A DNA stretch of 39,616 nt, from positions 1 through 39,616 of the IMG/VR virus record IMGVR_UViG_3300034198_018304, one strand, 5' to 3'. The position numbers and the translations under genes were made by a program. Within the stretch, counting starts at the first letter, position 1; the number at the start of each line of letters is the position of its first letter. Of the stretch, positions 8,485 through 37,870 are shown piece after piece. Below the pieces are notes generated by a model, which was not told the DNA's origin, made no database searches, and saw only the letters and a list, made by a program, of their open reading frames with translations. This stretch comes from a virus.

Positions 8485-8513
8485 GATTCTAGCGGGCTCC
8501 TGTTAGCGTTTGT
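8485..8513 (+). promoter_or_regulatory. Candidate phage promoter P1 (upstream of WGR-ligase unit)
   Basis: GATTCT at 8485-8490, fifteen bases, then GCGTTTGT at 8506-8513. It fits the two-box pattern GTTCY-N15-RCGTTTAY seen at eight other places in the window. It lies 30 bases upstream of the start at 8543, which has a TAGGAG ribosome-binding site at 8531-8536. The sequence just upstream (8452-8493) contains GCTAGAA and TTCTAGC arms that could form a weak hairpin ending the tail operon. Confidence 0.6.
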
Positions 8514-8542
8514 CTTTCAGAAACGCCACATAGGAGCAGCCC

Positions 8543-9028
8543 ATGACCACTGTCCGTTGCCACGATATCGGAACCCTGATCCGCAGTGCCGAATTCGGCA
8601 AGAAGTGGACCCTCACCCTGACCTATAAGGGTCCGAATGAGAAGAACCTGTCCGGCCACTCGGACAAGTGGTGGTCTATGTCGGGGACGGGGACGGGACG
8701 GGTAGAGATCAACTTCGGCGCCGCTCATTCGATGGGTCGGTCTACCCCGGTGACCAAGACCTACAGCGAGGCCATGAAGGTCTTGAACGAAAAGCTGTTC
8801 AAGGGATACACCTTCTTTACCCCTACCCCCGTCACCACCGCTTCACACATGAAGCCGCTGGCGGGCATGGGCGCCCCATTCTGCAACATCGTGAAGCTCT
8901 TGTTTTCCGATAATGGAACGCCGGTCGATGCCCTCGACGAATCGGGGCGTGTGGTCGTGAGGATCCCCCTCGACACCGCACGGAGTCTGGCAAAGCAGTA
9001 CCCTGACCTCGCGCAGGCTTGCGCGTGA
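8543..9028 (+). CDS. WGR-domain-like protein, partner of the DNA ligase
   Basis: This 161-residue protein starts at an ATG with a TAGGAG ribosome-binding site. Residues about 30-92 read like a WGR domain: a KWW strand, a GRVEINFG strand followed by GR, then T-KTYSEAMKVLNEKLFKGY, which matches the typical ending of bacterial WGR domains (F-x-S-x-x-EA...F-x-KL-x-KGY). WGR domains of PARP-type proteins bind DNA ends and nicks. The gene overlaps the ligase start (TGATG), so the pair is translationally coupled, which fits a role in recognising breaks for sealing. The canonical W-G-R triplet is not intact (INFGAAHSMGR), so the family call is moderate. The last 70 residues are unassigned. Confidence 0.5.
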   Translation: MTTVRCHDIGTLIRSAEFGKKWTLTLTYKGPNEKNLSGHSDKWWSMSGTGTGRVEINFGAAHSMGRSTPVTKTYSEAMKVLNEKLFKGYTFFTPTPVTTASHMKPLAGMGAPFCNIVKLLFSDNGTPVDALDESGRVVVRIPLDTARSLAKQYPDLAQACA

Positions 9029-10899
9029 TGAAATTCATGGATACCATCGAAACCATCGCCGCACGAATTCAGATGTATCGCGATGCCTACTACAACGGCA
9101 CGCCCATGATCGAAGATGCCGTCTACGATGCCCTGGAGGATACACTTCGGGGTCTAGACCCGAACCACCCGTTACTTGCGCGGGTCGGCGCCCCGCCCAC
9201 CGGAGGCTGGAACAAGGTCGCGCACAAGTGCGCGATGGGCAGTCTGGCCAAGGCCCAGGAAGTGGGCGAGGTCGCCGCATGGTTGAAGAACGCCCCTGCC
9301 AAGGGCTACACCGTCATGGAGAAGATGGACGGGGCATCGGTCGCCCTGTTCTACGAGAACGGCGTATTTCGGCAGGCGTTGACTCGCGGCGACGGCGAAA
9401 CGGGCGAGGATATCACTCGCAATGTCATGCGTATGGATTTCCCGAAGACGATCAACGCCCCGTACACGGGCTGGATCCGTGGGGAGATCATGTTGACGCT
9501 CTCGGCGTTCAAGCGTCACTTTGCCGGGGCGAAGAATCCGCGAAACACGGCCAACGGGACCATGAAACGCCATGACGGGACTGGATGCGAGTATCTGACG
9601 ATCTACGTCTACGAATTCGACGCCGCGACCGGCAGCAAGCAGGACGTGCTCCAACTTGCCCGAAGTTTCGGGTTCAAGACGCCCGGTTACTGTTCTGCCC
9701 ACGATCTGACTCACATCAATGACATCTATCAGGGCTACTGTGAAGGTGCCCGTGCCGTTCTGAACTATGAGATCGACGGCCTCGTGATCGAAGTCGATGA
9801 CCGCATCACCCGGGACGATCTGGGTGTCACGGACGGTCGCCCCAAGGGAGCGATTGCCTACAAGTTCCCACATGACATGAAAGAGACGAAAATCCGTAAC
9901 GTGGTCTGGCAGACGGGCAAGACGGGTCGGGTGACACCCGTTGCCATGTTCGATACGGTGCGGCTCGCGGGCGCGGATGTTTCACAGGCGTCACTACACA
10001 ACGTAGGCTATATCCGTCGCCTGGGAGGTCTTCGGAGTGGTGACTTGATCATGGTGTCTCGACGAAACGACGTGATCCCGGCAGTCGAGTCTGTGATTGC
10101 GTCGTATGATGGGGATTTCTTCGCACATCCCGACGACTGCCCAAGCTGTGGCAGTCATCTGGATTTCGAGGGTGAGTATCTGGTCTGTCGTAACGAGGGT
10201 TGTTCCGCGCAGATTGCGGGTGGGATTCGTCGTTGGGTGGACAAGATCGGTGTCCTGCATGTCGGGGAAGGGCTGATTGACGCCCTTGTTGATCAGGGTC
10301 TTGTGCAAGACCCTGCGGACCTGTATGAACTGAGCCCTTCACAGATCGCGAATGTGGAACTGCCCGATGGCCGAGTGGTGGGCGAAGCGATTGCCGACCG
10401 TGCCGTCGCTAACCTGTCTCTCTGCATGAGGCTGGATCTGCACACGTTCGTCGGTTCGTTGGGCATCCCACTTTTCGGTCGGTCGATGGTCAAGGTTCTG
10501 GTCGAAGCCGGATATGACACCCTGGAGAAGCTGCGTGCGATGACTTTGGCAGACATGGCTGGCATTGCGGGTGTCGGCCCCACGAAGGGCAAGTCCTTCA
10601 TTGAAGGCATCGAAGCCCGTGGGGGTTTGATCGACCGTTTGCTCGACGTGGGGATCAAGATCAATATCCGCAGCACGACGGGGCCGATGGTCGGCAAGAG
10701 CATGTGCCTGACGGGTTTTCGGGATGCGACCTTGGAGAAGGCGTTTGAGGATGCGGGAGGTTCAGTCAAGTCCGGTGTCGGCAAGGGACTGACGTATCTC
10801 GTGGCCAAGGATGCCAATTCGGGGTCTTCCAAGTTGCAGAAGGCGCGGGATCTGGGTGTGACAGTCTTGTCGCCGAATGATATGCGAGCCTTGCTCTAA
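9028..10899 (+). CDS. ligA: NAD+-dependent DNA ligase (LigA)
   Basis: This 623-residue protein seals DNA nicks using NAD+. An N-terminal Ia-type segment contains YYNGTPMIEDAVYDAL. The nucleotidyltransferase active site is EKMDG with catalytic Lys99, followed by TRGDGETGEDIT, RGEI, YEIDGLVIEVDD (motif IV) and AYKFP (motif V). An OB domain (TGRVTPVA, SLHN, GD-x-I-x-x-RRNDVIP), a four-Cys zinc finger (Cys371, 374, 387, 392), helix-hairpin-helix repeats and a C-terminal BRCT domain (about 555-623) complete the standard order. The length is slightly below the usual 670 residues of bacterial enzymes. I chose ATG 9028, which overlaps the upstream stop by one base; TTG 9019 and ATG 9037 are alternatives. 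A strong hairpin follows the stop. Confidence 0.96.
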   Translation: MKFMDTIETIAARIQMYRDAYYNGTPMIEDAVYDALEDTLRGLDPNHPLLARVGAPPTGGWNKVAHKCAMGSLAKAQEVGEVAAWLKNAPAKGYTVMEKMDGASVALFYENGVFRQALTRGDGETGEDITRNVMRMDFPKTINAPYTGWIRGEIMLTLSAFKRHFAGAKNPRNTANGTMKRHDGTGCEYLTIYVYEFDAATGSKQDVLQLARSFGFKTPGYCSAHDLTHINDIYQGYCEGARAVLNYEIDGLVIEVDDRITRDDLGVTDGRPKGAIAYKFPHDMKETKIRNVVWQTGKTGRVTPVAMFDTVRLAGADVSQASLHNVGYIRRLGGLRSGDLIMVSRRNDVIPAVESVIASYDGDFFAHPDDCPSCGSHLDFEGEYLVCRNEGCSAQIAGGIRRWVDKIGVLHVGEGLIDALVDQGLVQDPADLYELSPSQIANVELPDGRVVGEAIADRAVANLSLCMRLDLHTFVGSLGIPLFGRSMVKVLVEAGYDTLEKLRAMTLADMAGIAGVGPTKGKSFIEGIEARGGLIDRLLDVGIKINIRSTTGPMVGKSMCLTGFRDATLEKAFEDAGGSVKSGVGKGLTYLVAKDANSGSSKLQKARDLGVTVLSPNDMRALL

Positions 10900-10930
10900 C
10901 TGCCCGTCCGTCTACATTAGGCCGCCTATC

Positions 10931-10966
10931 AGAAAGCCCCTGGCGCATATGCGCCAGGGGCTTTCT
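10931..10966 (+). terminator. Hairpin terminator after the ligase gene
   Basis: A perfect inverted repeat of 18 + 18 bases (left arm AGAAAGCCCCTGGCGCAT) lies 31 bases after the ligase stop. The stem is GC-rich at its core and ends in CTTTCT, so the U-tract is weak. It probably ends transcription of the WGR-ligase unit and insulates the late genes that follow. Confidence 0.8.
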
Positions 10967-11022
10967 GCGTTAATGCCCTCGACGTATCGCCACACTTGCG
11001 CAACCCCCACAGGGAACGGGAC

Positions 11023-12060
11023 ATGAAGATCGCTACAAGCATTTCTGTCGGGGATCGCGAGTCGCCACTAGAGGCGGACTCCGAAACGGACGTGCTCCAT
11101 ACGGGGGACGAGATCGGCAAGCGTTGTGAGATATCCCCGTTCGCTGGCGGGCAGCTTGTCAACCATGTAGGCAAAGGTGCCCGTATCACGGGGATCATCA
11201 AACGTCTTGGGCAGACGGTGGGTTATGAGATCCGAATCAACAATCGCACGGTCTTGGTGCCTCTTAAAGACGTGTTTGTTGGTCGGCAGGTACTAGAGGA
11301 CATCCAAGCACCTACGCTCTACACGCGGGCGATCCGGGAGGCTCTTTCGCACTGGAAGGTGCAACGTGATTATTGGGCGCCGGATTTGTCTGGTTTGGAG
11401 GCGCTCTGCTATGAACTCGCCACGGTGGCACCCTCTGCACACATTGTTGTAACGGATGGTGGTTGGAAGTTTCTGGTGCCTGAGCCGCTTGGTGGCCGTG
11501 TTGTTGTGGACTGTGCGGTTCGAGTCCACGGCAACATTTGGTCTATGACAGTGGCCATATATCCTGAGCGTGAGCCGACTCCGGATGCAAAGCCAATTTT
11601 GGATCATTGGGGTCGGGTATTTACGTGGGCACACACGATTGCGTCACAGTTTAAGGGTTTGCCGTGGGAGAAGGCGTTGGGGAACCTGAGCAAACGCGCA
11701 CAAGTTTCTGCAAAACTTTTGCGACCTTTACTGGCAGAGTCCTTGGCAACAGCTTTCGAGAAGCGGCAGGAGCTTTTTGGAGACGCCCCGAAAATTTACA
11801 ACAATGGTGTGAGCATCGGCATGTCGAAAATCCGACTCTTGCCGATGACCGTTGGGTTGACGGAGCAGCCGAGTGATCGTCGACCGTACACCGTCATTTC
11901 GATATCGCCTGACGCCTGCAAGACGCGGGATGCAATGCGGGATGTGATCCTACATGAGTGCGTCCATTTGGCGTTGGCCGTTCGTGGTGGAGACCCACAC
12001 AACGGCGACTTCCACAAACTAGCAGATGCTCTAGGGCTGCCAGAGAAACACCAACACTAA
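11023..12060 (+). CDS. Zincin-type metallopeptidase-like protein (SprT-like ending)
   Basis: This 345-residue protein has the zinc-binding helix HECVH (residues 311-315) preceded by RDVIL, and GDPHNGDFHKLADALGLP about 10 residues later. That arrangement resembles SprT-like and related zincins, in which a third His or Asp downstream completes the site. The preceding 300 residues are not recognised; a beta-rich segment near residues 50-95 (GARITGIIKRLG, NNRTVLVPLKDV) could be an SH3-like barrel. ATG 11023 is preferred over an in-frame TTG at 10996 because AGGGAACGGG lies just upstream of it. It opens the late gene block, with the next gene 12 bases on. Its role (virion maturation, lysis or host-protein cleavage) cannot be told from the sequence. 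Confidence 0.6.
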   Translation: MKIATSISVGDRESPLEADSETDVLHTGDEIGKRCEISPFAGGQLVNHVGKGARITGIIKRLGQTVGYEIRINNRTVLVPLKDVFVGRQVLEDIQAPTLYTRAIREALSHWKVQRDYWAPDLSGLEALCYELATVAPSAHIVVTDGGWKFLVPEPLGGRVVVDCAVRVHGNIWSMTVAIYPEREPTPDAKPILDHWGRVFTWAHTIASQFKGLPWEKALGNLSKRAQVSAKLLRPLLAESLATAFEKRQELFGDAPKIYNNGVSIGMSKIRLLPMTVGLTEQPSDRRPYTVISISPDACKTRDAMRDVILHECVHLALAVRGGDPHNGDFHKLADALGLPEKHQH

Positions 12061-15708: not shown

Positions 15709-16343
15709 AACAAATTCAAATCACACTTGGATATGGTCGGGTGCTTCCAGTCCACATCCCGGACTTGGATGTCACTGTGCGATTGGGAGAGACACATCTG
15801 ATAGATGAGGTCCGAGCCCGAAACTCGCTTTGTATGACCACGCTTATGCAAACGGGTCACATTCGGGTATCTTATAGGCGGAGTGATGAGACAAAAATGG
15901 CAACAATCGCAACAAAGCCGAGTGTACATTCTGTCGTGCAATCCCGGCCTTCGAGTCAGCCTTTGTCACACGCACCAAAGCCAACCCCACAGGCTCCTTC
16001 CGTGGATGTGGACAAGATAGCCGCAGCAGTTGCCGTGGCCGTGGCGTCACAACAAGCCGCCCAGCCTGCCGCCCTTGAAGCCATGATTGAGCGAGCCGTT
16101 GAAAGCGCCCTTTCACGGGCAAGATTAGCAGCACCCGGCAGTGCGTCTATCAACGCCAACAGGGACGACTTGATGCACACAGATCCAGTGTATATACCAA
16201 CAAATATTGTTGGGGATGCACCTGTAGAGATCAAGACGACTGCTGGTGTTTCCGATGCGGCGAGCCTGCATGATGCAGCGAAGGCGCTCAAATCTGTCAA
16301 TCGACCCAAGCGAGTAAAGAAGCAAGACCATGGCGAAGAGTAA
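15705..16343 (+). CDS. Hypothetical protein with N-terminal beta domain and Ala/Pro-rich linker
   Basis: This 212-residue protein starts within the upstream stop codon. Residues 1-60 form a compact beta-type domain. This is followed by a Pro/Ser/Gln-rich linker (about 70-100), an Ala-rich helix (about 103-145) and a Lys/Arg-rich C-terminus. The 3' end overlaps the actin-like gene by 14 bases, so production of the two proteins is probably linked. I do not recognise a family. Its position between a tail-completion candidate and the actin-like protein leaves both a virion protein and a partner of the filament open. Confidence 0.6.
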   Translation: MKQIQITLGYGRVLPVHIPDLDVTVRLGETHLIDEVRARNSLCMTTLMQTGHIRVSYRRSDETKMATIATKPSVHSVVQSRPSSQPLSHAPKPTPQAPSVDVDKIAAAVAVAVASQQAAQPAALEAMIERAVESALSRARLAAPGSASINANRDDLMHTDPVYIPTNIVGDAPVEIKTTAGVSDAASLHDAAKALKSVNRPKRVKKQDHGEE

Positions 16344-17343
16344 CACTGTTTCTCGGGGCATCGGCGCAGACATCGGGACAATGAATGTCGTGTCTGCACG
16401 CATGTCCGATGACGGCCAAATCAAAACGGCCCGGATTCGAGATGCCTTTATCGATCTGGAAGCTGGGGCGAAGAAAATGCTCAAGCTCTCTGGTGTCGAT
16501 TTTATCGACCAAGGCGACGAAGGCATTGTTGTCATTGGGGACGCTGCCATGGAGATGGCAACGGTCTTCGGAAGGGAATTGCGGCGTCCGCTGTCCCGGG
16601 GCTTGATTGCAGCCGGTGAAATTGACGCTCTAAAAGTCCTCGGCGTCATTGTCAAAGGGGTTTTAGGTCCGCCGAAGGAACCCAATGAGATTTGTTACTT
16701 TTGTGTGCCTGCGGCTCCAGTTGACGAAGCTCGTGATGTCGTCTATCACCGGGGCGTGCTGGAACGTATTGTGACTGAGTGCGGCTATGACGCTGTGGCA
16801 ACAAACGAAGCCATGGCAATCATCTTCTCGGAGGCAGCAAAAGAGAACTTCACTGCCATCGGTGCGAGCTTCGGATCTGGCATGACCAATATCGCGCTCG
16901 CCATCAATGGCGTCGAGGGCATGGCTTTCTCTTGCGCCAAGGGTGGTGATTGGCTGGATGCTGGCGCTGCCAAAGCAGTCGGATCAACGGCATCCCGCAT
17001 CTGCGCAATCAAAGAGCGGGGGATCGACCTCATGGCGCCTAAGAACCGTGAGGAAGAGGCTCTGGTACTCTACTACAAGAGCCTGATCGAATACGTGATC
17101 GACCAAATCGCACGAGAGTTTGACCGCAATCGGGAGAAGTTCGCGCTGCCCCGTGAAATCCCGATTATCGTCTCGGGTGGGACATCTATGGCCGGTGGTT
17201 TTCTGGCCCTTTTCCAGAAAGTCTTTGACCGCAAAAAGAAGCGGTTTCCGATCCAGATCAGCGAGATACGGGCCGCCAGTGATCCGCTCAATGCTGTGGC
17301 TAATGGGCTTCTCGTCCTTGCTCGGCAAGAGTACGAGGACTGA
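16330..17343 (+). CDS. Actin-like ATPase (ParM/MreB superfamily)
   Basis: This 337-residue protein has the ordered actin-fold motifs. Phosphate-1 is GADIGTMNV (Asp14-Thr17). A connecting helix contains TNEAMAIIFSEA (Glu160 region). Phosphate-2 is GASFGSGMTNIAL (178-190), and the adenosine-binding loop is IIVSGGTSMAGGF (279-291). The length matches ParM and MreB. Proteins of this fold bind ATP and assemble into filaments that move or position DNA, or they act as Hsp70-type ATPases; no Hsp70 substrate domain is present. In phosphate-2 the usual acidic residue is Ser180 (normally V-D-x-G-G-G-T-T-D), so hydrolysis may be altered. It lies among virion-type genes and overlaps the upstream gene by 14 bases. 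The actin fold is confident; its role is unknown. Confidence 0.85.
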   Translation: MAKSNTVSRGIGADIGTMNVVSARMSDDGQIKTARIRDAFIDLEAGAKKMLKLSGVDFIDQGDEGIVVIGDAAMEMATVFGRELRRPLSRGLIAAGEIDALKVLGVIVKGVLGPPKEPNEICYFCVPAAPVDEARDVVYHRGVLERIVTECGYDAVATNEAMAIIFSEAAKENFTAIGASFGSGMTNIALAINGVEGMAFSCAKGGDWLDAGAAKAVGSTASRICAIKERGIDLMAPKNREEEALVLYYKSLIEYVIDQIAREFDRNREKFALPREIPIIVSGGTSMAGGFLALFQKVFDRKKKRFPIQISEIRAASDPLNAVANGLLVLARQEYED

Positions 17344-17375: not shown

Positions 17376-18665
17376 ATGCAGCATCAAGCATCGCCTTTCA
17401 AAGTAGCCGCACGTTTTTTGAAAGCTGGTTTGATACAGCCACCTCCTGTAATGCTGACCAGCATTCGAGAATGGGTGCTTGGCTGTATCGCAGCAACCAA
17501 AATAGATAAGTTGGAGCGTAAGCTCCAATCCCATCTGGAATCCAGAGGCCGGTATCTCACACGACTCAGTGAGCTAGAACGTGCGGCTTCGCGGCTGGAG
17601 GGGCTCCTGCCTAGTGGCAAGTCCCGAGAACTGTTGTCGGCCGCAAAAGAGTTGTTCTCACTCACCTTGGGCGTCTTCGGCTATGGCGTCGCCCAAGAAC
17701 CGGAAGCGGCACACTTTCAAAAGCTAGACGACGCCAAACGCGCATCGTTGATTCCGGCACTTCAAGCCATGCTCAGCAAGGTTCGATACCGCTGTGCAAT
17801 TGAGCGGCTTGACCGCGAGGTCGAGAACGACTTGGAGCGTGATATCGCAACCGTTCGGCCAAGTGTTACACCGGACGCGGTATCCGTGCGTGACGGCAAA
17901 GCAAAAAAGACTTTCCCGGTGGATCTGACGGGCTGGAAGTACGGGGACGCTGCGATCTGGGACGCTCTGAAGGCCACGAAGTCCAAGCTCCTTGCGGAGA
18001 CTGGGATTACACGCGCTGAATTGCTAAACAGCTTACGTGAACAGCAGACAGAATCCAGATATGGATGGCGCAATATCACAGTCATCCTCATGGATGGTGA
18101 GATGGCACCACCTAATGCCACAGGGGGACATTGGTCTCCCATAGCGAGAGAGTTGGTGCTCTATATCCCTCTTGTCCAGGCGGAAGACCGGATTTTGAGC
18201 ACGATCTACCATGAAATGACTCATGTGGCGCAGTCCATCCTTCGTGAATCCGTGACAAATGTGGACTATGCAGACTTCAAATCGGGAGTCCGACTGCATG
18301 TGCCGGGAATGCCCCCAAAAAACATTTCGACACCGAAGCATATCCAACTCCAAGGTCCCGGAGTTAGAAGCCCGAATGCGCTTGAAACTCACGCCCTGGA
18401 CGACGTTGAGTTTTTCACGGACTTGAAAGATGCAATTGACACGGCAAAAGTCGGACTTCGAGACTTGGATCGGCGTTATCGACGCCAAGCAACCCGTGAA
18501 GAACAACGCATCTATATTGACTGGTTTGTGGGGGTCTTGCCCCGGTGGCCCGCTTCAATGGGCCAGATCCCTCCGCAGCAATCTCCAGCCTTCAAAGCGT
18601 GGAGGCGGGATGCTCCTGGCAAGTGGAAACGCGGAATCAAAGAGTTGTTCAAGCTACTGGATTAA
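17376..18665 (+). CDS. Zinc metallopeptidase-like protein (HEMTH)
   Basis: This 429-residue protein carries YHEMTHVAQSIL, an HExxH zinc helix at about residues 278-282, preceded by a strand (ELVLYIP). Downstream, an ALETHALDDVEFFTDL segment (about 335-350) may supply further ligands. The N-terminus, SPFKVAARFLKAG, looks like a short separate tag before a charged helical region (about 40-150). Together with the product of 11023-12060 it makes a second zincin-like protein in the same late block. It could be a maturation or scaffold protease, an endolysin-like peptidase or an internal virion protein; none is proved. No strong ribosome-binding site precedes the ATG at 17376. Confidence 0.6.
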   Translation: MQHQASPFKVAARFLKAGLIQPPPVMLTSIREWVLGCIAATKIDKLERKLQSHLESRGRYLTRLSELERAASRLEGLLPSGKSRELLSAAKELFSLTLGVFGYGVAQEPEAAHFQKLDDAKRASLIPALQAMLSKVRYRCAIERLDREVENDLERDIATVRPSVTPDAVSVRDGKAKKTFPVDLTGWKYGDAAIWDALKATKSKLLAETGITRAELLNSLREQQTESRYGWRNITVILMDGEMAPPNATGGHWSPIARELVLYIPLVQAEDRILSTIYHEMTHVAQSILRESVTNVDYADFKSGVRLHVPGMPPKNISTPKHIQLQGPGVRSPNALETHALDDVEFFTDLKDAIDTAKVGLRDLDRRYRRQATREEQRIYIDWFVGVLPRWPASMGQIPPQQSPAFKAWRRDAPGKWKRGIKELFKLLD

Positions 18666-18674
18666 CTCGTTTAT
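18646..18674 (+). promoter_or_regulatory. Candidate phage promoter P2
   Basis: TGTTCA at 18646-18651, fifteen bases, then TCGTTTAT at 18667-18674. The first box lies inside the end of the metallopeptidase gene and the second just after its stop. It would drive the genes at 18690 or 18723 and 18968. It matches the window-wide pattern with the same 15-base spacing, but the first box is one of the less perfect copies. Confidence 0.5.
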
Positions 18675-21165: not shown

Positions 21166-21214
21166 ATTCCCTCTAGTCCTTAAAATCGCACATGGCATTA
21201 CGGGGAATGGGATG

Positions 21215-23643: not shown

Positions 23644-23672
23644 GGTTCCAACGTGGGCGTCTTTACGTTTAC
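23644..23672 (+). promoter_or_regulatory. Candidate phage promoter P4 (rightward)
   Basis: GGTTCC at 23644-23649, fifteen bases, ACGTTTAC at 23665-23672. It lies 37 bases upstream of the start at 23710, which has a perfect AGGAGG ribosome-binding site (23696-23701). It is one of the best matches to the consensus. Confidence 0.75.
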
Positions 23673-27909: not shown

Positions 27910-28341
27910 TCATTCTGGGAAATGCACGAGAGATATATCCAATGTCCATGGGTGCTGTGAGCGTCTCTGCCAAGTCGAAAAAGCCTCGTTGATGTGATCA
28001 CGGGCTTGACGATCCGTCCAATCGTTGACTTTGACCAGATGGGCGAAGGCGCGGGCCTCGTTACCTGTGACCCGGGCACGACCGAAGTGTTTGACCTCAT
28101 GGCAATTTGGGCAAAGTGAGATCAGACCGTGCAAGGTCTGGACGTGCGTAGCATCATCGTAAGTCCAGATTTCATGGCATTCGACGGGATGCTTCTTGCC
28201 GACACCACCACAAATTTCGCATTTGTGCCCGGCTCGGGCATAGGACGCATGACGTAAGGCGTCCCACTCGCTTGCCTTGAAGCGCGAACGGAGATTGTCT
28301 CCCCAAGCCGTCTTGGGGACCAGTTCAATGGTGAGTTGCAT
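27910..28341 (-). CDS. HNH endonuclease-like protein
   Basis: This 143-residue protein contains CEICGGVGKKHPVECHEIW and CPNCHEVKHFGRA, giving CxxC...H-x-x-x-CHE...H...CxxCHxxxH, a zinc-stabilised HNH fold. The ECHEIW segment preceding a D-x-x-THVQTL strand and LISLCPNC are typical of phage HNH proteins. It could be a homing nuclease or a nicking enzyme in phage DNA metabolism. It is the first gene of the leftward operon and lies 31 bases downstream of promoter P5. The second HNH gene of the window (22418-22714) is not a close copy. Confidence 0.8.
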   Translation of the reverse strand: MQLTIELVPKTAWGDNLRSRFKASEWDALRHASYARAGHKCEICGGVGKKHPVECHEIWTYDDATHVQTLHGLISLCPNCHEVKHFGRARVTGNEARAFAHLVKVNDWTDRQARDHINEAFSTWQRRSQHPWTLDISLVHFPE

Positions 28342-28372: not shown

Positions 28373-28401
28373 AACAACGTGTTGTCCCCGCCCCTAGAAC
28401 A
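28373..28401 (-). promoter_or_regulatory. Candidate phage promoter P5 (leftward)
   Basis: Reading leftward: TGTTCT (28401-28396), fifteen bases including AGGGGCGGGG, then ACGTTGTT (28380-28373) followed by ATAGTAG. It precedes the HNH-phosphoesterase operon. The second box is the weakest match among the nine, but the position and spacing are right. Confidence 0.55.
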
Positions 28402-28408: not shown

Positions 28409-28437
28409 CGTTCCGGTAGGGGGCGGGCTACGTTTGG
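28409..28437 (+). promoter_or_regulatory. Candidate phage promoter P6 (rightward)
   Basis: CGTTCC at 28409-28414, fifteen bases including GGGGGCGGGC, ACGTTTGG at 28430-28437. It lies 40 bases upstream of the start at 28478 and diverges from P5, with only seven bases between the two first boxes. Confidence 0.65.
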
Positions 28438-28477: not shown

Positions 28478-28771
28478 ATGTCGAATGCACAAGAATCCGC
28501 CTGGGCTTTGTTGAAAGCTCAAGGCTACGAAACGGTCGGGCATATCGTCAGCCACTTCGACGGTGGGACGGTGTTCTTTTACCGTGGGCACAAGGAGTCC
28601 AAGTCAGGGCCTCAGTGCAAATACGCCAAGGTTGTCGTGTTGGGCAATGGTGATCTGGATGGTGAGGTCGAGATCATCTCACGAAACGACAAAAAGCGGC
28701 TTCAGAAGTTGATCTCGACGATCAACCGCCGTCTGACGCGGACTGAGAAGCGGGCTTCCCACAAGGGATAA
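28478..28771 (+). CDS. Small hypothetical protein
   Basis: This 97-residue protein starts MSNAQESAWALLKAQGYETVGHIVSHFDGGTVFFYRG, with CGGAG about 10 bases upstream of ATG 28478. It has a short N-terminal helix, three strands and a basic C-terminal helix (KKRLQKLISTINRRLTRTEKR), which could contact nucleic acid. An in-frame TTG at 28451 is not used here because it would lie too close to promoter P6. No family is recognised. The HAD gene follows 35 bases later. Confidence 0.65.
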   Translation: MSNAQESAWALLKAQGYETVGHIVSHFDGGTVFFYRGHKESKSGPQCKYAKVVVLGNGDLDGEVEIISRNDKKRLQKLISTINRRLTRTEKRASHKG

Positions 28772-28806: not shown

Positions 28807-29412
28807 ATGACGGACGCGCTCCCTATCGTTTTCCTCGACCTCGACGAAACGCTTGTCTGCTCATTCGAGCCTATGACCGTGACGTATGCCCAAGCGGCAT
28901 ACGACAGGGCGATGCTCAAGCCGCAGACCCCGTTCAACGATAGTCTCCGTACACGTTCCCGCATTCGGTTGGAGCAGCTAAAATCAGCGGTGCGTGTGTC
29001 ATCGGAATTCATGGCCATCGTGCGACCAGACGCGCAAAAAGCCATAGACTTTCTGGGTACTTTTGCCGAGATCCATATCTTCACAGCAGCCGACGCAGAA
29101 TATGCAGCGGCCGTTTGCACCGCCGCTGAATTCAAGTTCAAGCCCGGCGAAGGTCGCATCTTCACGCTTCGGAACCCAGGCTTGGATATGCGTTGGGCGA
29201 TTCATCGCCCTTGGGTCTTGCTTGACGATACGCCAGGATTTGCAAAGATCACTTTCCTCGAAGACCTGGATTTTGAATCCCGAGTGATCCAAGTAGATCC
29301 ATTGGATCTGGGTGATGAGTGCTTGTCCCTGATGGACTACGCAAAAGAGGCGGCTCGGCGGTTCGGATTTATCGATCCTCATCATAGGTCAAAGTTAACG
29401 ACCCAAGCGTGA
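28807..29412 (+). CDS. HAD-superfamily phosphatase (FCP1/NIF-like)
   Basis: This 201-residue protein has FLDLDETLVCS (motif I, nucleophile Asp11 and Asp13), IRPDAQKAIDFL followed by IHIFTAAD (motif II Thr), and WVLLDDTP (acidic motif). DLDETL together with RP...F-E-I-x-x-FT is the signature of FCP1/SCP-type phosphatases, which act on phosphoproteins; other HAD members remove phosphates from small molecules or nucleic-acid ends. ATG 28807 follows GGAGG with six bases of spacing. It lies downstream of promoter P6. The 3' end overlaps the convergent baseplate gene by 44 bases. Confidence 0.85.
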   Translation: MTDALPIVFLDLDETLVCSFEPMTVTYAQAAYDRAMLKPQTPFNDSLRTRSRIRLEQLKSAVRVSSEFMAIVRPDAQKAIDFLGTFAEIHIFTAADAEYAAAVCTAAEFKFKPGEGRIFTLRNPGLDMRWAIHRPWVLLDDTPGFAKITFLEDLDFESRVIQVDPLDLGDECLSLMDYAKEAARRFGFIDPHHRSKLTTQA

Positions 29413-32400
29413 CGTATTGCGTAGGTCCAGGGTCGATATCCTTGCTGCCACTGTCGGCCCCGACAATGTAGATAACGGCATAGGTGTGCGCAGTCGGGGA
29501 TTGGCCAACAGGGAGCGACACCAAAATCCGATTCGCGGTCAGGGCGAGCCTTTGGGCAGCAATTGCTGCCGCCGTCACATAGCCTTGGGCTATTAGGGTT
29601 GCATCATCCGAGTAGCCCGCGATGGCTCGACCGGATGCGCCCAAGATATAAGCCCTGCCCGATGCAAGTCCGAGAGATCCCAGATTTGCAGCGGCCTCCA
29701 GTAAATCCAGTGCAACCTGATCCTGGAAGACTCCACGATAGTCGACGGAAGGCCCACCGCCATCCGTTGTCGCAGCGGATAGAGGGTTCTTCAGGATATA
29801 CACGGTGGTCCGATTGCTGGATAGCGATGATATGCTCGCGGACTCAGCCGCCGTGTCCGTGGAGATTTCATCCCAGACCACAGTGCTGTTCTCTGCACGG
29901 ACCATTTTTGTAAGGGGTACGACAACGTAGGACACGCCTGTTGTCTGCTCGAACACGCTGATCAAATCTGATTGTCGTATGGCGTCGCCAAGCCTCATAC
30001 CCGCAAGAAAATTGTCGAGGTTCGTCCGCAATGCCCGATCTACAAAAGCAGGATCAAGACCTCGCTGCAAGACGATGGTCGCGGATAAGTCCAGCGGAGC
30101 CGGTATGGCCTCTTTGACGAGAACGTCGGCAGTCGCGTGTTTACGCGCGTCAATCGCGTTCTGGGTCAGGGACACAATCAAATTTGTCGTGTACGTGACC
30201 GTGAAATTCTCGTCATGCTCGTAGCTAACAAGCACACTTGCGCCTGATGGGATCGCCCCTGTCTCGACGCGCGTGATTGATGCTGCTGTGGTCTGTGTGC
30301 CCAGCGTAATCTCAAAGTCGGGGTCGCCAGAGGGGTCATCCGGTCCTTTGTATTCTGTCAAGCCATCTGCGCTAAACACCCGGATTGTAAAATAGTTGGC
30401 GCCGAGGTTGTTCAAATATTCAGGGTACTGCCCAATCAACACATGCTGCTCACCGACGATTGACGTGAACGTCCCGCCCACACCGCCGTTGATTTGTAGA
30501 TAGTCGCCCGAGATAGTTGATCGACCGTACCCCAAAGGTGAGTTCGGGTGGTATAAACCGTACACTGTAGGATCAAGTGTGCCTGAAGCTGTCCCCACGA
30601 CAGATTTGATCTGTTTGACGGGCTGTCGAGGGAGAACAAAGATATTCCCTGCCCTTTTGCGATATGACCCCAACACGATATCAGTCAGATCCACAGAAGG
30701 CTGTGCGATACTGGTATCCAACTGGATCGTATTGTAGGACGTAATCACAACGTTGGTCAGGTCAAAAGTCTCACCTGTGGACACATTCTTAAACGTGTAA
30801 CCTGCGGCGGGTACGTCTAGCATTTCAACAATCGGGTTGTCCACGTTTAGAGCGGTATCCACCGCCACAAACGTCAATGAAGCGGGGTCTCCAACGGATT
30901 CGAATTGGATGTCTTGTGCAATATCATAGGAGAAGGCAAAAGAGTCCGTGATCGTAGCAACATTGGATTCCCCTTGGACCCACACGTCGACCTTGCCGCC
31001 CCGATGCACTTGATTGTCATCCAAGTCGCGCATCATCACGGCGTCGCCTGCTGCCACAACGTTCGCTTCGATGACGCCTGGAGTATCCGCTGCGGTCTGC
31101 GCGTAACCTAGGGCCGTGCCCGAGTCCACCGAAGCAAGACGGTTCTGAGCCCGCTCAATTAATTCGAGGTTGGACTCGGTGCCCACGCCCCCAAACATGG
31201 CCGCAGAGTTTGTGACAAGAACCCCACCGGGAATTTGGGTCACAACCTGACGAACCTGACCGACGCCAACGTTGCCGCTGCTGCCAGTGTTGACCGCGCG
31301 AACGGGCACATTGACTTTGTACCTGCCAGACACAGGGTCGTAAAAAGACGCGAGTTGGCTAAAATCAATGCTTGCTGCACGGGTGGTGACGAACTGCACC
31401 CCACTCGCAGCAACAATTGTTCCGATGGCGAGAGATATCGTGAACGTCGGCCGCTTGCTTGTGTAGAACGTCACTTCACCTTGAGCAGCTTGCCCCGATC
31501 TACGAATCACCCCAAAATTGCTGGCATATACATCAAACGCAGAGTCCACCATCGCCTGGACCGCAGCGTTGGAATTCATGTAGAGCGCAGCTTTGAGTGC
31601 TTGTTTGTATGCACTTTGCGTAACAGCAACCGATGACCCCGTATTTTGCGGGTCGTCGATCTGAAGTAACAACGCGGGTGTGCGGGACCGATAAAAGAAA
31701 TCCATCAGGAACCGGAGTCGCTCGGACTCTGATGAGAACGGGTCAATCACCGTATCCCGCAGAGTAGATCCAGGCTCTACTTTGATCTGTGGGTTTGATC
31801 GGAAAACGGCCTCGATGTAGCTCTCGACGATTTTTTGCCTGGACACAACCGCCAGCGATCCATTTGCGGTCGATATTGCAAGAGGTCTGGCCACGACTTC
31901 TTGCGAATAGGCAGATGTATATTCGAGATTCGACGCCGTATCATAGTAGGTGGCTACGACAACGTAGTAGAGCGGTGTCTCTGCGGGCAAACTACTGAAT
32001 ATGCCTGTACGAATAGTTTTTGGGTCCGATGTTGGCCCGTTTGATCGTCCGTGCTCGAATGAATAGACCGTGAAAGTACGAACAGTGTCCAGTGTTGCCG
32101 TCATTCGGATATGACGTGCCGTCTCAGGAATCACAAATCGGGAGTCCAAGTCCGCCTGGAGCAAGTCCCTGTTCGTGTCTTCTTGACGGGCAAGAACCCG
32201 AAAGTATTGAGGGTCCGCAAGCGGTACGTCACTCCCATCAACTGCAACATTCGTATCCAGATTAATAGACCCGAATGTCTCGACCTCCTGCTGACCCGTA
32301 CCAGAGGTCACCATATCCAAATTGATCTTTGTGTAGCCCTGAGTGCCACCACCGGCGTCCATTGAAGCATAGAAGTCCATGCCACGAAAGCCTGTGGAAC

Positions 32401-32809
32401 TGCTCGGTTCCGCTTGGATGACTACCGTGCTGCTCTTTTGCGTCACCCGAACGTTCGTCGGCGCCGTCGCAATTACAATATTGGCGTCCGTTACCAACCA
32501 GATTGTGGCGACTGCCGGTGATGACGCCATGCCCGAAGGATCAATGGCCCGCACCGATATCGTATTCATCCCAGCAAGTAAAACCAGTCCATCCGGTTCG
32601 TACATGGGATTCGGGACTGTGAAGCTGCCGTCACCCCACAAGGCCAGCGATGGATCCGACGAATAGCCAGAGCCGTTGACGGAAACCTGGAAGTCAATTG
32701 CGTCCTCTGGTAACGACCCCTGCACAAATTTTCGTGCAATCGTCGTGCTGAAGGCCAACGTACTTCTAGCCAAGCCGTCTGGACCTGTGATTGTGACAAG
32801 TGCTGCCAT
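29369..32809 (-). CDS. Baseplate wedge protein, gpJ-like, with N-terminal Ig/FN3-like domains
   Basis: This 1146-residue protein contains a Baseplate_J-type region near residues 450-640. Its signs are GTIVAASGVQFVTTR followed by strands, VPVRAVNTGSSGNVG, an LIERAQNRLASVDSGTALGY helix and TPGVIEANVV. The N-terminal 330 residues are Ig- or FN3-like (ATAPTNVRVTQKSSTVVIQAE). Baseplate J family proteins form the wedge ring that joins sheath to fibres in contractile tails. P2 gpJ is about 300 residues and T4 gp6 about 660, so this is an enlarged version. It starts within the upstream stop (TGATG). The encoding strand is opposite to the hub and spike genes. Confidence 0.75.
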   Translation of the reverse strand: MAALVTITGPDGLARSTLAFSTTIARKFVQGSLPEDAIDFQVSVNGSGYSSDPSLALWGDGSFTVPNPMYEPDGLVLLAGMNTISVRAIDPSGMASSPAVATIWLVTDANIVIATAPTNVRVTQKSSTVVIQAEPSSSTGFRGMDFYASMDAGGGTQGYTKINLDMVTSGTGQQEVETFGSINLDTNVAVDGSDVPLADPQYFRVLARQEDTNRDLLQADLDSRFVIPETARHIRMTATLDTVRTFTVYSFEHGRSNGPTSDPKTIRTGIFSSLPAETPLYYVVVATYYDTASNLEYTSAYSQEVVARPLAISTANGSLAVVSRQKIVESYIEAVFRSNPQIKVEPGSTLRDTVIDPFSSESERLRFLMDFFYRSRTPALLLQIDDPQNTGSSVAVTQSAYKQALKAALYMNSNAAVQAMVDSAFDVYASNFGVIRRSGQAAQGEVTFYTSKRPTFTISLAIGTIVAASGVQFVTTRAASIDFSQLASFYDPVSGRYKVNVPVRAVNTGSSGNVGVGQVRQVVTQIPGGVLVTNSAAMFGGVGTESNLELIERAQNRLASVDSGTALGYAQTAADTPGVIEANVVAAGDAVMMRDLDDNQVHRGGKVDVWVQGESNVATITDSFAFSYDIAQDIQFESVGDPASLTFVAVDTALNVDNPIVEMLDVPAAGYTFKNVSTGETFDLTNVVITSYNTIQLDTSIAQPSVDLTDIVLGSYRKRAGNIFVLPRQPVKQIKSVVGTASGTLDPTVYGLYHPNSPLGYGRSTISGDYLQINGGVGGTFTSIVGEQHVLIGQYPEYLNNLGANYFTIRVFSADGLTEYKGPDDPSGDPDFEITLGTQTTAASITRVETGAIPSGASVLVSYEHDENFTVTYTTNLIVSLTQNAIDARKHATADVLVKEAIPAPLDLSATIVLQRGLDPAFVDRALRTNLDNFLAGMRLGDAIRQSDLISVFEQTTGVSYVVVPLTKMVRAENSTVVWDEISTDTAAESASISSLSSNRTTVYILKNPLSAATTDGGGPSVDYRGVFQDQVALDLLEAAANLGSLGLASGRAYILGASGRAIAGYSDDATLIAQGYVTAAAIAAQRLALTANRILVSLPVGQSPTAHTYAVIYIVGADSGSKDIDPGPTQYVTLGSLTLTYDEDR

Positions 32810-33006
32810 CAGATCAACTCTTCCACATCACCCAAAATCTGTGATTCTACGTCGACTTGATGATCGATTCGTTCCAAAAGCGGCAACACCGCTCGGAAAG
32901 AGGGTTCCAACAGAGCATACTCGCGAATCGCATCCTGCAAAGACATGATGTCATGCGTCATACGATAGAGTAGCTCGGCTTTCTTCTTGCGATTCGTATC
33001 CTTCAT
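32809..33006 (-). CDS. Small helical protein within the baseplate operon
   Basis: This 65-residue protein begins MKDTNRKKKAELLYRMTHDIMSLQDAIREYALL and is all helical, with a Lys-rich start. ATG 33006 has GAGAGG six bases upstream; an in-frame TTG at 33012 is rejected. It lies between the gp25-like and gpJ-like genes and is coupled to the latter (TGATG). It may be a small baseplate assembly factor, but there is no direct evidence beyond context. Confidence 0.65.
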   Translation of the reverse strand: MKDTNRKKKAELLYRMTHDIMSLQDAIREYALLEPSFRAVLPLLERIDHQVDVESQILGDVEELI

Positions 33007-33016
33007 CCCCAACCTC

Positions 33017-34165
33017 TCAGGCGTTACCGATGACTGTCGGCTGAATCCCCAAGCTTAACCCATTCGTGCCCTTCAAGGCGACGACACCTGGAACCGTGAA
33101 CACAATGTTCAGGAGCACAGTCCGATTGGACGCATTTTTGACTGTAACCTGAACCTGAAATGTCGTCGGATCATTTGGATCTGTGTTCACTTGCACGTTG
33201 TTTATTGCATAGAGCCGTTCTTCAGCACTTACTGCCTGATACTTGCCCTGCGCCGCTTGTAGAGATTTGACTCGTTCAAGGGCCGTCTGGATATCCGACC
33301 GTATAAGCGACTGCGTCGCGGCGATTGCCTTCGCACCGATACGTGTTGTAACCGCCGACCCATACGCCGGATGATACGGATTGGATCCAAGCACGGTCAA
33401 AATCGCTTTCAAGCACGCTTGATAAAGCAGATCCTCGTCCTGAATCAACGCCATGTCGCCTTGAATATCGAAACGATAGTCGTTCTCGACGTAGGTGCCG
33501 CCACATCGCGGACACCGATCAGACATTGCGGCGTAGGTTATTTTGATTGTAGGGTTGCCCGCCAGAGGCCGTATGAATTTTGGTCGCCGCGAAGGTACCG
33601 GGAACACGCCAGCCGGAAGTTCTGTGGGCAGGGTGTCGTAGTAAGTCACCAACTGCCACGGCGGGTATATCTCTTTGCCCCGTGCGCCAATTTGTGTGAA
33701 ACCCAACGCTGTGCATACACCCCCAGACAAACGGATAAACGAGCCAAGTCCCGGTGTGTCGTTGTCAATCAACGACAACACCCCGTCTCGGTCTTCCACC
33801 GTAACAATGTCCGTTGCAAGTCTGATTGCCCGCGCGACTTGCGATATCGGAACTTGATCCCCTTCCGGGATTCGGACAGATGCCGTTCCGTTAGAAGTGG
33901 TGATTATCAAAAGGTTCCCGTCTGCACCGATCAAAGGGACGCAGCGTTGAATCCTATACGGGCCTCGCCTGCCAGCGGAAAGTATCGCCGCAGAGTATAG
34001 ACCCGAGGATGGGACGTAATCCTGGTCGTTGACCAGGATTAGAACCGAATCGGTGGATGCAATGGGAGCTTTGGGCATTAAAGTTTGCCTGTCTGTCGAA
34101 AGACTGACAGGTTCTTCAACTACCATGTGCGGGCAACGATGCCCTAAGTGGGGTTCCCGGCTCAT
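33017..34165 (-). CDS. Baseplate wedge protein, gp25/gpW-like C-terminal domain
   Basis: This 382-residue protein has a C-terminal part (about 235-375) with MALIQDEDLLYQACLKAIL, NPYHPAYGS, IRSDIQTALERVKSL and two strands (NNVQVNTDP, TFQVQVTVKN). This resembles the gpW/gp25 family of small wedge proteins that seed sheath polymerisation. The N-terminal 210 residues are a separate beta-rich region with CTALGFTQ, and a CPRCGG motif (218-223) marks the junction. Typical gp25 proteins are about 130 residues, so this is a fusion or extended form. The ATG at 34165 lacks a clear ribosome-binding site; in-frame ATGs at 34126 and 34078 are possible. Confidence 0.6.
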   Translation of the reverse strand: MSREPHLGHRCPHMVVEEPVSLSTDRQTLMPKAPIASTDSVLILVNDQDYVPSSGLYSAAILSAGRRGPYRIQRCVPLIGADGNLLIITTSNGTASVRIPEGDQVPISQVARAIRLATDIVTVEDRDGVLSLIDNDTPGLGSFIRLSGGVCTALGFTQIGARGKEIYPPWQLVTYYDTLPTELPAGVFPVPSRRPKFIRPLAGNPTIKITYAAMSDRCPRCGGTYVENDYRFDIQGDMALIQDEDLLYQACLKAILTVLGSNPYHPAYGSAVTTRIGAKAIAATQSLIRSDIQTALERVKSLQAAQGKYQAVSAEERLYAINNVQVNTDPNDPTTFQVQVTVKNASNRTVLLNIVFTVPGVVALKGTNGLSLGIQPTVIGNA

Positions 34166-35683: not shown

Positions 35684-36532
35684 CTAGTACGAATGGGTCA
35701 ATTGCCCCCTGAAATGCTGCGCCGCGTCTTTCACGGCCGAAATGGCTTGTTCGACCATAAAAGGTCGATACGTCCCTCGGTAAAAAGCCTCAATGTCACT
35801 TTTGCGGTAGCCCATCGCCATTTTTTCAGCGATCTCACGAGTCAGCGCCTCAGGCGTCTGCTTGTGCTGCGTATTTCGCACCGCATAGGATATCATGCGG
35901 TCAAGGAGCAAACTCGTCTCCGCCTTCTCCGTAGATTCGTGTGGGCAGACGGCAGAAGCCGCAACGTCTACGAGATCACCATCGGCATCGTGAATCCCCA
36001 GGCGTTCGGATTGCGTGACTCGATCCCACTTGCGATGGTAGTTCGCGAGCACGCACTTGATTATCAAATGGACGTAATGTCCAAAAGTTGATTTAGACGC
36101 ATCAAAAGGGCAGGTGCCCTTGTTCCGAATCAAGATGCCCTTGTAGACCTCTTGCAACACGTCTTCCGGGTCATATCCATAGTTGACGCAACTACGGGCA
36201 AACCCCGCGTAAAACAACTTGGCGACCTCATGGCCGCGTCTTACGAGGTCGATGCCACGGGTACTCGACCGAGAGGGCGACTTGAATAGCACCAACGTGT
36301 CCATGCTAGGCACGCTGGTTCGCCCGATCTTGAAGTATCGGGCGAACCCAATCTTTGGGTCGGGCACACTCGGCCCCGGTTGTGGGTTGCGACTGGTAAT
36401 CGCAGTCAACGTTTTTCGCACTGAGGGGTACTGGATAGACCCCGTGGGCCAGTCGACCTCGAAAATCCCGGAGTCCAGCTTACGAACACGATGACCACCA
36501 TGCACCGCCCGTGCAAAGTATTCGATCTGCAT
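35684..36532 (-). CDS. Sigma-70-family factor (phage-encoded)
   Basis: This 282-residue protein contains a recognisable sigma region 2 (about 104-168): AKLFYAGFARSC, then YDPEDVLQEVYKGIL, then FDASKSTFGHYVHLIIKCVL. The D-x-EDLxQ-E-V/A-y-x-gi pattern followed by FD-x-x-KSTF-x-x-Y is the core RNA-polymerase-binding and -10-reading segment. A C-terminal helical part (about 228-276) may be a reduced region 4. Such proteins redirect host RNA polymerase to phage promoters, as T4 gp55 does. ATG 36532 with a GGTGA ribosome-binding site is preferred over a GTG at 36586. It could read the GTTCY-N15-RCGTTTAY promoters, but that is inference. Confidence 0.75.
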   Translation of the reverse strand: MQIEYFARAVHGGHRVRKLDSGIFEVDWPTGSIQYPSVRKTLTAITSRNPQPGPSVPDPKIGFARYFKIGRTSVPSMDTLVLFKSPSRSSTRGIDLVRRGHEVAKLFYAGFARSCVNYGYDPEDVLQEVYKGILIRNKGTCPFDASKSTFGHYVHLIIKCVLANYHRKWDRVTQSERLGIHDADGDLVDVAASAVCPHESTEKAETSLLLDRMISYAVRNTQHKQTPEALTREIAEKMAMGYRKSDIEAFYRGTYRPFMVEQAISAVKDAAQHFRGQLTHSY

Positions 36533-36540
36533 TTGTTTCA

Positions 36541-36631: not shown

Positions 36632-37219
36632 TCATGCAACCGCCCGGCCGAAACGTCGGGCGAGCTTGATCCGAAGTCGCGTGACCCAACCCGCTCGGGC
36701 AAGCAGGTTGTAAAGCCGCTCACAGGTCTCGGCGTCAAAGAGAGCCGTATGCGCCCCGTCTTTCGACCATCCGAGATGGTCCCGAATCTTGTCGAGGGCC
36801 AGGGACTCCAACCCAAGCGGGGCGAGGTGCTCATAGGCGAGAGTCATCGTATCGACCTTGTGGTGCCCGAAAGTCTTCCTCCCGTGGATTTTCAGTTCCG
36901 CCTCCAGGAACCCCATGTCGAAAGGGACATTGTGTCCGACGATCACGGCCCCCTTGAGCATTTCGACGATGCTATCGGCCACGTCGGCAAAGGCGGGGGC
37001 ATTGGCCCAGGCTTCCTCCGTGTACCCATTGATCTCCAGGGCCTTCGGAGAAGCCTCAGAGAGCCGCGCCGGCTTGATCTTCGTGCTGAAGACCACACGG
37101 TCCCCATCGGGATTGATCCGAATAATCGCTGCCTCGATGATTTCCTGCCGACCCGGCTCAAGGCCGGTGGTCTCAGTGTCAAAGAAACAGACGGGCTTCT
37201 GAGAAAGGCTCTTACTCAC
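36632..37219 (-). CDS. DnaQ-like 3'-5' exonuclease (DEDDh)
   Basis: This 195-residue protein has FFDTETTGLEPG (ExoI, Asp14 and Glu16), VGHNVPFDMGFL (ExoII) and HTALFDAETCERL (ExoIII, HxxxxD), plus KVDTMTLAY. It is a stand-alone proofreading-type exonuclease of the DnaQ/oligoribonuclease group, acting on DNA or RNA 3' ends. I chose GTG 37219 because GGGAG lies five bases upstream; the TTG at 37231 has no such site. It lies downstream of promoter P7. The gene after it on the same strand is the sigma factor, 99 bases away, so the two may be co-transcribed. Confidence 0.92.
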   Translation of the reverse strand: MSKSLSQKPVCFFDTETTGLEPGRQEIIEAAIIRINPDGDRVVFSTKIKPARLSEASPKALEINGYTEEAWANAPAFADVADSIVEMLKGAVIVGHNVPFDMGFLEAELKIHGRKTFGHHKVDTMTLAYEHLAPLGLESLALDKIRDHLGWSKDGAHTALFDAETCERLYNLLARAGWVTRLRIKLARRFGRAVA

Positions 37220-37256: not shown

Positions 37257-37285
37257 ATAAACGCGGACTGCGATGCCCCGGAACC
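37257..37285 (-). promoter_or_regulatory. Candidate phage promoter P7 (leftward, exonuclease)
   Basis: Reading leftward: GGTTCC (37285-37280), fifteen bases, GCGTTTAT (37264-37257) followed by AGTG. It sits in the 71-base gap between the acidic protein gene and the exonuclease gene, 37 bases upstream of GTG 37219. Confidence 0.75.
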
Positions 37286-37290
37286 GACTA

Positions 37291-37719
37291 TTACGGATAG
37301 TCGCGCTCCCAATCGGAGCACCAATCGGGGCCGTCGTCGGGCTCGTAGTCGTTGGCGCCGTAGTCGTCGGGCAGGTGGCACTGCCCCTCATAGTCGTAGG
37401 TGCAAGTAAACCGGGTCACTCCGCCATCATCGGTTTCGACCTTACGGGTTCCGGCGACGGGGACGAATTCCAGGTCACATTTGAGTTCATCGTCCGATTG
37501 CCGGGAGAACCCGGCCGTCTCCTCGGGGAGATCCTCATCCCCCTCGACAATCCAGGTCAGGGTGACCTGACCCTCGTAAGTCCGGATCGCGTAGGGGCGG
37601 CTGTCGTTCGCCCAGGCCCCGTGATAGTCATGCCATCCGATTCCGTCGTCTCCGATCTCGTCCTGACCTTCAATGTCGATCAGGGCGAGGGCCTCATTGA
37701 ACTTCTCTTCGTAGGGCAT
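37291..37719 (-). CDS. Acidic hypothetical protein
   Basis: This 142-residue very acidic protein starts MPYEEKFNEALALIDIEGQDEIGDDGIGWHDY at ATG 37719 with AAGGAG upstream; the longer frame to 37776 is rejected because it would overlap promoter P8. Strands near SRPYAIRTYEGQVTLTWIV and a DYEPDDGPDWCSDWERDY tail stand out, with many Asp, Glu and Tyr/Trp. Highly acidic small phage proteins often mimic DNA or bind basic host proteins, but that is only a possibility here. It is transcribed leftward from P8. Confidence 0.7.
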   Translation of the reverse strand: MPYEEKFNEALALIDIEGQDEIGDDGIGWHDYHGAWANDSRPYAIRTYEGQVTLTWIVEGDEDLPEETAGFSRQSDDELKCDLEFVPVAGTRKVETDDGGVTRFTCTYDYEGQCHLPDDYGANDYEPDDGPDWCSDWERDYP

Positions 37720-37758
37720 GATGGGCTCCTTGTTTGGGTTGCGTTGTCCGTCTGCAAG

Positions 37759-37787
37759 GTAAACGCAGCGGGGCATCTACTGGAACT
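37759..37787 (-). promoter_or_regulatory. Candidate phage promoter P8 (leftward)
   Basis: Reading leftward: AGTTCC (37787-37782), fifteen bases, GCGTTTAC (37766-37759) followed by CTTGCAG. It lies 40 bases upstream of the start at 37719 and mirrors P9 across a large hairpin. Confidence 0.75.
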
Positions 37788-37798
37788 GAAATTCGCAT

Positions 37799-37842
37799 CG
37801 ATTTCGGGGTCAGCCTTTGCGCAAGGGCTGACCCCGAAATCG
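37799..37842. repeat. 44-bp inverted repeat between divergent promoters
   Basis: Arms of 17 bases (CGATTTCGGGGTCAGCC and its complement) enclose a TTTGCGCAAG core that continues pairing apart from one G-T wobble. It lies exactly between the first boxes of P8 and P9 and ends at the first base of P9. No T-run is present on either side, so a regulatory or transcript-insulating element is likelier than a normal terminator. Confidence 0.85.
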
Positions 37843-37870
37843 GTTCTGGGGGCGACGGATCTACGTTTAC
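37842..37870 (+). promoter_or_regulatory. Candidate phage promoter P9 (rightward)
   Basis: GGTTCT at 37842-37847, fifteen bases including GGGGGCG, ACGTTTAC at 37863-37870 followed by CATGTAG. It lies 34 bases upstream of the long ORF starting at 37905. Confidence 0.75.

Follow-up and report, generated by a model that had tools for sequence, protein, structure and literature searches.

Nine two-box sites in the window, by which we mean the whole 39,616-base virus record IMGVR_UViG_3300034198_018304, are likely to be bipartite promoters read by a phage-encoded sigma factor of the extracytoplasmic function (ECF) type together with the host core RNA polymerase. The candidate factor is the product of a gene at 35684-36532 (minus strand), which the original prediction of a shared promoter at these sites did not mention. 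Recognition of the sites by this protein, the transcription start points, the timing of expression and the use of the host core enzyme are what we infer from the evidence below.

All nine sites were found exactly at the predicted coordinates and on the predicted strands. The fixed 15-base spacer was also confirmed, as GTTC and CGTTTA occurred together in six exact copies, all at a spacing of 17 (equal to N15 between the boxes), and none of the other spacings between 10 and 21 yielded a copy. Shuffled sequences gave an expectation of 0.29 for the whole gapped pattern. A weight matrix was then built from both boxes of the nine sites and used to score approximately 79,000 window positions, a scan that had been proposed as a check. 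The nine sites took ranks 1-9, all with at least 15.3 bits, and the next-best position, which was coding, scored 12.5 bits. When each site was left out of the matrix in turn, the ranks were 2, 3, 3, 7, 9, 10, 12, 13 and 19. The number of positions with at least 12 bits was 10 in the real window (shuffled mean 2.8, maximum 6). An unsupervised search of the upstream regions of the window gave the same motif as its top gapped word pair, with six copies compared to at most four in shuffles. The weakest sites were those at 8485, 18646, 28373 (second box CGTTGTT) and 28409.

The predicted intergenic and gene-facing placement was equally clear. Eight of the nine sites are wholly non-coding, in a window where non-coding DNA makes up 11%, and the ninth (18646-18674) overlaps the final bases of the preceding gene. 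Start codons lie 29-48 bases downstream for most sites and about 110 bases downstream for 23592 (minus strand). The sites face the following genes:

8485-8513, plus strand (site 1): precedes 8543-9028 (no assigned function), then an NAD-dependent DNA ligase at 9028-10899 (phrog_3869, E 2.7e-146).
18646-18674, plus strand (site 2): precedes the small genes 18690/18723-18938 and 18968-19837.
23592-23620, minus strand (site 3): precedes 22711-23481 (no assigned function) and an RNA ligase at 21215-22411 (phrog_562, E 1.5e-62).
23644-23672, plus strand (site 4): forms a divergent pair with site 3 and precedes a small-gene cluster from 23710; this site had the best leave-one-out rank (2).
28373-28401, minus strand (site 5, the weakest): precedes an HNH endonuclease at 27910-28341 (phrog_5200, E 2.7e-54), at a distance of 31 bases if the gene starts at 28341.
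28409-28437, plus strand (site 6): forms a divergent pair with site 5, with 7 bases separating their first boxes; precedes 28478-28771 and a NIF-like phosphatase at 28807-29412.
37257-37285, minus strand (site 7): precedes a DnaQ-like 3'-5' exonuclease at 36632-37219, minus strand (phrog_192, E 1.9e-44; Pfam RNase_T, 4.4e-27), which is the first gene after the site and is followed by the sigma gene and baseplate genes on the same strand.
37759-37787, minus strand (site 8): precedes 37291-37719 (no assigned function).
37842-37870, plus strand (site 9): forms a divergent pair with site 8; precedes a long gene from 37905 that runs off the window and is complete in the contig L146 described below.
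146-8450, plus strand: tail-associated block, so assigned by synteny with relatives, with no site in an upstream position.
29369-34165, minus strand: baseplate genes (phrog_6, phrog_975), with no site of their own.

The idea that an ECF-like promoter defines a regulon dedicated to DNA/RNA metabolism and accessory functions fits this list, as ligases, an HNH endonuclease, an exonuclease, a phosphatase and small genes lie downstream. The further claim that few virion genes are served is sound for the positions of the sites, the tail and baseplate blocks being without them, but it is limited to those positions because the promoter at 37257 may read through into the sigma and baseplate genes. The GGGGCG block described for the spacers amounts to a weak G bias only. 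Most sites do share an AT-rich element (of the GAAATC or GATTTT type) immediately 5' of the first box. The boxes bear no resemblance to TTGACA-N17-TATAAT, in agreement with the prediction that they are not sigma-70 promoters, and sigma-70-like sites were rarer than expected in the right half of the window (3, compared to 10.8 in shuffles). A late promoter of the T4 gp55 type, with a single -10-like element and no -35 box, was ruled out by the two boxes at fixed spacing.

Three divergent pairs (23592/23644, 28373/28409 and 37759/37842) stand back to back and phages commonly carry repeats, which could suggest that the motif is an operator, an origin-linked repeat or a mobile repeat and no promoter at all. 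We regard this as extremely improbable, given sites that face genes close to their start codons, a spacer that is weakly conserved and an ECF-like geometry that recurs across many diverged genomes.

The putative sigma gene was characterized through its family. The protein (35684-36532, minus strand) is a divergent sigma-70/ECF-type factor of 282 amino acids whose match to Pfam Sigma70_r2 (E 0.006-0.007) falls below the cut-off. Its layout comprises an N-terminal domain, sigma region 2 at approximately residues 98-170 and a C-terminal helix-turn-helix (HTH), region 4-like, at approximately 228-275. We aligned it with 23 homologs, almost all of them encoded on contigs of huge phages, which reach 536 kb. 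When members were scanned singly, 20/24 matched the sigma-70/ECF superfamily model TIGR02937, with a best E of 1.1e-10, and the family profile had one significant entry in PDB, the RNA polymerase sigma-H structure 3mzy (E 5e-7 and 1.3e-6), spanning regions 2-4. Region 2 is highly conserved in the family (GHEVxKL...DPEDVLQE...FGHYVH). For region 4, several members gave matches to the C-terminal HTH (best Sigma70_ECF 2.4e-4, r4_2 0.024), the match of the window protein alone not being significant. Region 3 was absent among the matches of family members, an absence that is weak evidence. Direct profile comparison of the family with E. coli RpoE, FliA and two sigma factors of the phage Tunturi_5 gave no significant match. 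From its sequence, we file the product as ECF-like in domain layout and not as a typical ECF factor, because the -35 box is GGTTCC in the window, with other spellings in relatives, and is not GGAAC-like.

Three further observations were made on this family. A homolog occurs on L147 (WJJK01000286.1), which is binned as an Altiarchaeales archaeon and is probably a misbinned phage contig. In G011 the sigma gene (20795-21717) is apparently split over two frames, its relative in G009 being intact. A second, shorter region 2 match, possibly a paralog, is present in each of G021 (42917-43183) and G025 (265442-265708).

We then examined the relatives that carry the sigma gene (G1-G24 denote virus records G001-G024; LR745208.1 is the same phage as G013). 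The window's own motif spelling was absent from them. This absence was dropped as a refutation when an unsupervised upstream search gave the relatives' own spellings: most genomes examined carry a two-box motif with a -35-like box, approximately 14-17 bases and a core that is usually (C/A)GT. The spelling differs in nearly every lineage, as follows:

G1 and G2: GGTTTT-N16-CGTTTGG, with a sigma factor 67% identical to that of the window.
LR745208: CTAAAA-N16-CGATAGG, with 54 matches allowing up to two mismatches.
G6 and G8: GTTCAA-N16-CGTAT.
G7: GGTTGG-N16-CGTC.
G10: CGTTAA-N16-CGTAAG.
G12 (536 kb): CTTACT-N14-CGTAGA, with 133 intergenic sites at two mismatches.
G14: GGTTCC..CGTAGAG.
G15: TAACGTAA..CGTATAG.
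G16: GGTTGC..CGTATA.
G17: GGATCATC..AGTAG.
G19: GGTAAC..AGTAG.
G22: GGTTAC..CGTGG.
G23: TGTAA..CGTGCAG.
G24: GCTTAT..AGTAGT.

The motifs of G5 and G6 were recognised through their likeness to those of their nearest relatives. In 14 genomes (window included) with a non-coding fraction of 7-21%, 89-100% of matrix matches were intergenic, and in most genomes the best dyad exceeded a simulated null for the upstream set (85.7 vs 7.3 in G12; 28.7 vs 10 in LR745208). In LR745208 most sites fall within the first 160 kb, and most structural genes related to those of the window lie near 264-341 kb. GGTATGG was considered as a late-promoter candidate in this phage and rejected, since only 12/90 copies were in an upstream position.

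An AT-rich element (CGATTT type) also lies 5' of the first box in the window, G1, G2, LR745208 and G22. This extra element, together with a first box that is more diverged than the second, would suit an arrangement in which the first box is the site of a MotA-like phage activator and the second a degenerate -10 for the host sigma-70 or the phage sigma. We consider such an arrangement very unlikely, as the second boxes are unlike TATAAT, each phage keeps a fixed, sigma-like distance between its boxes, and the family proteins have a C-terminal HTH suited to reading a -35 box.

To return to the phage sigma factor as the reader of both boxes, its tree places like second boxes together: G12, G17, G19 and G24 with (C/A)GTAG, G15 and G16 with CGTATA, and the window with G1-G5. 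Over 16 rows, the -10 spelling required 7 changes on the sigma tree compared to a shuffled mean of 10.0, and 0/500 shuffles gave 7 or fewer; the -10 labels were assigned by eye and several inner branches are weakly supported. Spelling that follows the tree supports, without proving, contact between sigma factor and promoter.

A different reader has also to be weighed, namely one of the host's alternative sigma factors, of ECF or flagellar sigma-28 type, with the phage sigma-like protein serving other (late) promoters. The flagellar sigma-28 consensus is TAAA-N15-GCCGATAA, and the LR745208 version, written as TAAA-N15-(G/A)CCGATAG (approximately 54 copies), fits it; in addition, the CGT core of the -10 is ECF-like and the downstream genes resemble an early or middle set. 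However, the spelling changes with nearly every phage lineage and tracks the phage sigma tree while the geometry holds, and the boxes of the window, G1 and G2 fit neither the sigma-28 consensus nor the GGAAC box of ECF factors. More than 100 sites in one phage would also tie that phage to a rarely active host factor. We therefore judge a host reader unlikely. Separately, the sigma-28-like motif of LR745208 may reflect a motile host or convergent sigma specificity.

Several results weigh against the assignment of the sites to the phage sigma factor. Scanned alone, the window protein gave E-values of 0.03 and 0.006, under the curated Pfam/NCBIfam cut-offs. An AlphaFold model from 5 sequences was poor (predicted local distance difference test score, pLDDT, 48.5) and one from 12 sequences reached pLDDT 72, with which Foldseek returned nothing significant (best E 0.74; sigmaE region 2, 5or5, E 7.2); because the model is without a significant fold match, the case for a sigma factor is carried by sequence profiles. 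Sigma factor and motif share phage descent, so that their co-variation does not prove contact. Two sigma-bearing relatives, both partly sampled, are without a clear motif: G20 has no convincing one, and G21 none that is clear. In comparison with the simulated null, the dyad of G10 and that of G23 were marginal, and those of G5, G6 and G21 did not exceed it. Repeated upstream motifs were also found in two control phages, so that such a motif alone is not diagnostic of the huge-phage sigma factor. The Acidobacteriota phage Tunturi_5, in which two other sigma factors are annotated, carries a two-box motif of a different kind. In CcrBL9 (NC_048047.1) a long motif recurs in 17 upstream regions, with a TTGACac-like left part and CCCTATGCGAGAAAGG as its right part. 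Tunturi_5 showed no significant match to the huge-phage sigma family and no homolog was detected in CcrBL9 by the sigma queries. Finally, no further promoter site was found in the 5.25-kb extension of the window described below. As a side observation, the motif of Tunturi_5 (PP885688.1, a cultured jumbo phage) is CAAAtTCATCTTTGG..TGTAGGTTGA, in 29 upstream regions.

We propose that the phage sigma factor (35684-36532) would bind the host core RNA polymerase and redirect it to the nine promoters. By analogy with Salmonella phage 7-11 (see below), its region 4-like HTH may read the first box, GGTTCC, as the -35, and region 2 the second box, ACGTTTAC, as the -10, with transcription beginning a few bases past the second box. 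The sigma factor is likely to act with the core enzyme of the host, because no beta domain (PF00562) was found in the window (a fragment), G1-G4 or LR745208, and no beta-prime domain (PF04997) in the four largest records (G8, G10, G12 and G13), single-subunit polymerases not having been searched for in either case. The promoters would serve mostly replication, repair, RNA and small accessory genes, the kinds of genes served suggesting an early or middle class, and most virion genes would be without a promoter copy of their own. The first sigma molecules could arise from host promoters, through autoregulation by the 37257 promoter (before the gene preceding sigma) or by delivery in the virion. 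Sigma factor and promoters would have diverged together, so that huge-phage lineages came to spell the boxes in their own ways while the geometry stayed nearly fixed.

Judged by its genes, the window is a fragment of a much larger phage, because relatives of its genes for baseplate wedge, tail and actin-like proteins occur in the uncultured 485-kb phage LR745208.1. Over its right 7.1 kb the window shares 99.6% identity with L146 (RGPS01000171.1), a contig placed in the bin of an Acidobacteriota (Terriglobia) genome, which hints at an Acidobacteriota host; L146 adds 5.25 kb to the phage, with structural-looking genes. A megablast of the window against phages gave no match, and Rfam and tRNA scans of the window found nothing. 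The actin-family protein (16330-17343, plus strand) matches Pfam Volactin (E 3.5e-74), a name originating from an archaeon, and shares 63% identity with an LR745208 protein. The protein encoded at 24884-25489 (plus strand) contains a 37-residue exact tandem duplication (HFVDGVLYRLDEVQRGVTPHESPVTVWEDEAKRRVVI twice), which is either real or an assembly effect. Two proteins resemble SprT-like metalloproteases, at 11023-12060 and, more weakly, at 17376-18665 (both plus strand).

Private promoters for phage sigma factors are already on record (PMC4331800, PMC8948821), and PMC7824862 and PMC7162821 note the presence of sigma factors in jumbo phages. Searches of open PMC papers on sigma-28-type phage promoters or huge-phage promoter motifs gave nothing on the present family. 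As far as these searches reach, three things are new: the huge-phage sigma family, the promoter sets that go with it and the lineage-wise change of spelling within a near-constant geometry. A broader proposal, which we put forward tentatively and hold as somewhat short of an even chance, is that a large huge-phage clade runs much of its non-virion transcription via this undescribed sigma family, in a lineage-specific promoter language that forms natural orthogonal sigma-promoter pairs. Little is understood of the way in which huge phages that lack a polymerase gain control of host transcription, and a concrete, testable factor is offered here. Hundreds of predicted promoters in more than 12 phages provide a natural sigma-promoter series for studying the evolution of sigma specificity, and orthogonal pairs, if true, would be useful as laboratory tools.

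Bacterial ECF promoters have a CGT core in the -10 and a spacer near 16, with a GGAAC -35 that is typical and not universal. The phage system resembles the bacterial ECF (group 4) factors in having region 2, a putative region 4 and no region 3 match, a CGT core and a spacer near 16; it differs in its -35 box, GGTTCC and variants instead of GGAAC, and in the extra N-terminal domain of the sigma factor. No anti-sigma gene was identified, although no search was aimed at one. The flagellar sigma-28 (FliA) layout is matched by the LR745208 motif only, the window boxes being different. Group 2 jumbo phages have their own sigma factors and no polymerase of their own and are thought to recruit the host polymerase, according to PMC7824862; the present phages are similar in having a sigma factor with no polymerase of their own found, whereas the sigma factors described in that paper are single-HTH or RpoD-like versions, and the passages on them give no promoters. 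The gp36 protein of phiEco32, which lacks region 4 homology, uses promoters that consist of one element, tAATGTAtA, and lack a -35 box (PMC8948821), so that the likeness lies in a phage sigma factor with private (middle/late) promoters and the difference in two boxes here compared to one. In Salmonella phage 7-11, the sigma factor SaPh711_gp47 and the host polymerase use bipartite GTAAtg-(16)-aCTA promoters (PMC8948821). The present system probably shares with it the use of a phage sigma factor, with region 4 homology in phage 7-11 and a region 4-like HTH here, at phage-specific bipartite promoters of nearly equal spacing, a likeness that is drawn from sigma function and promoter layout and not from comparing the two sigma sequences. 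Unlike phage 7-11, a podovirus with eight promoters for late genes, the present system belongs to huge phages with up to more than 100 sites, mostly at non-virion genes, and with lineage spellings. Phage 7-11 is nonetheless the proven, small-scale precedent for a phage sigma factor with private two-box promoters.

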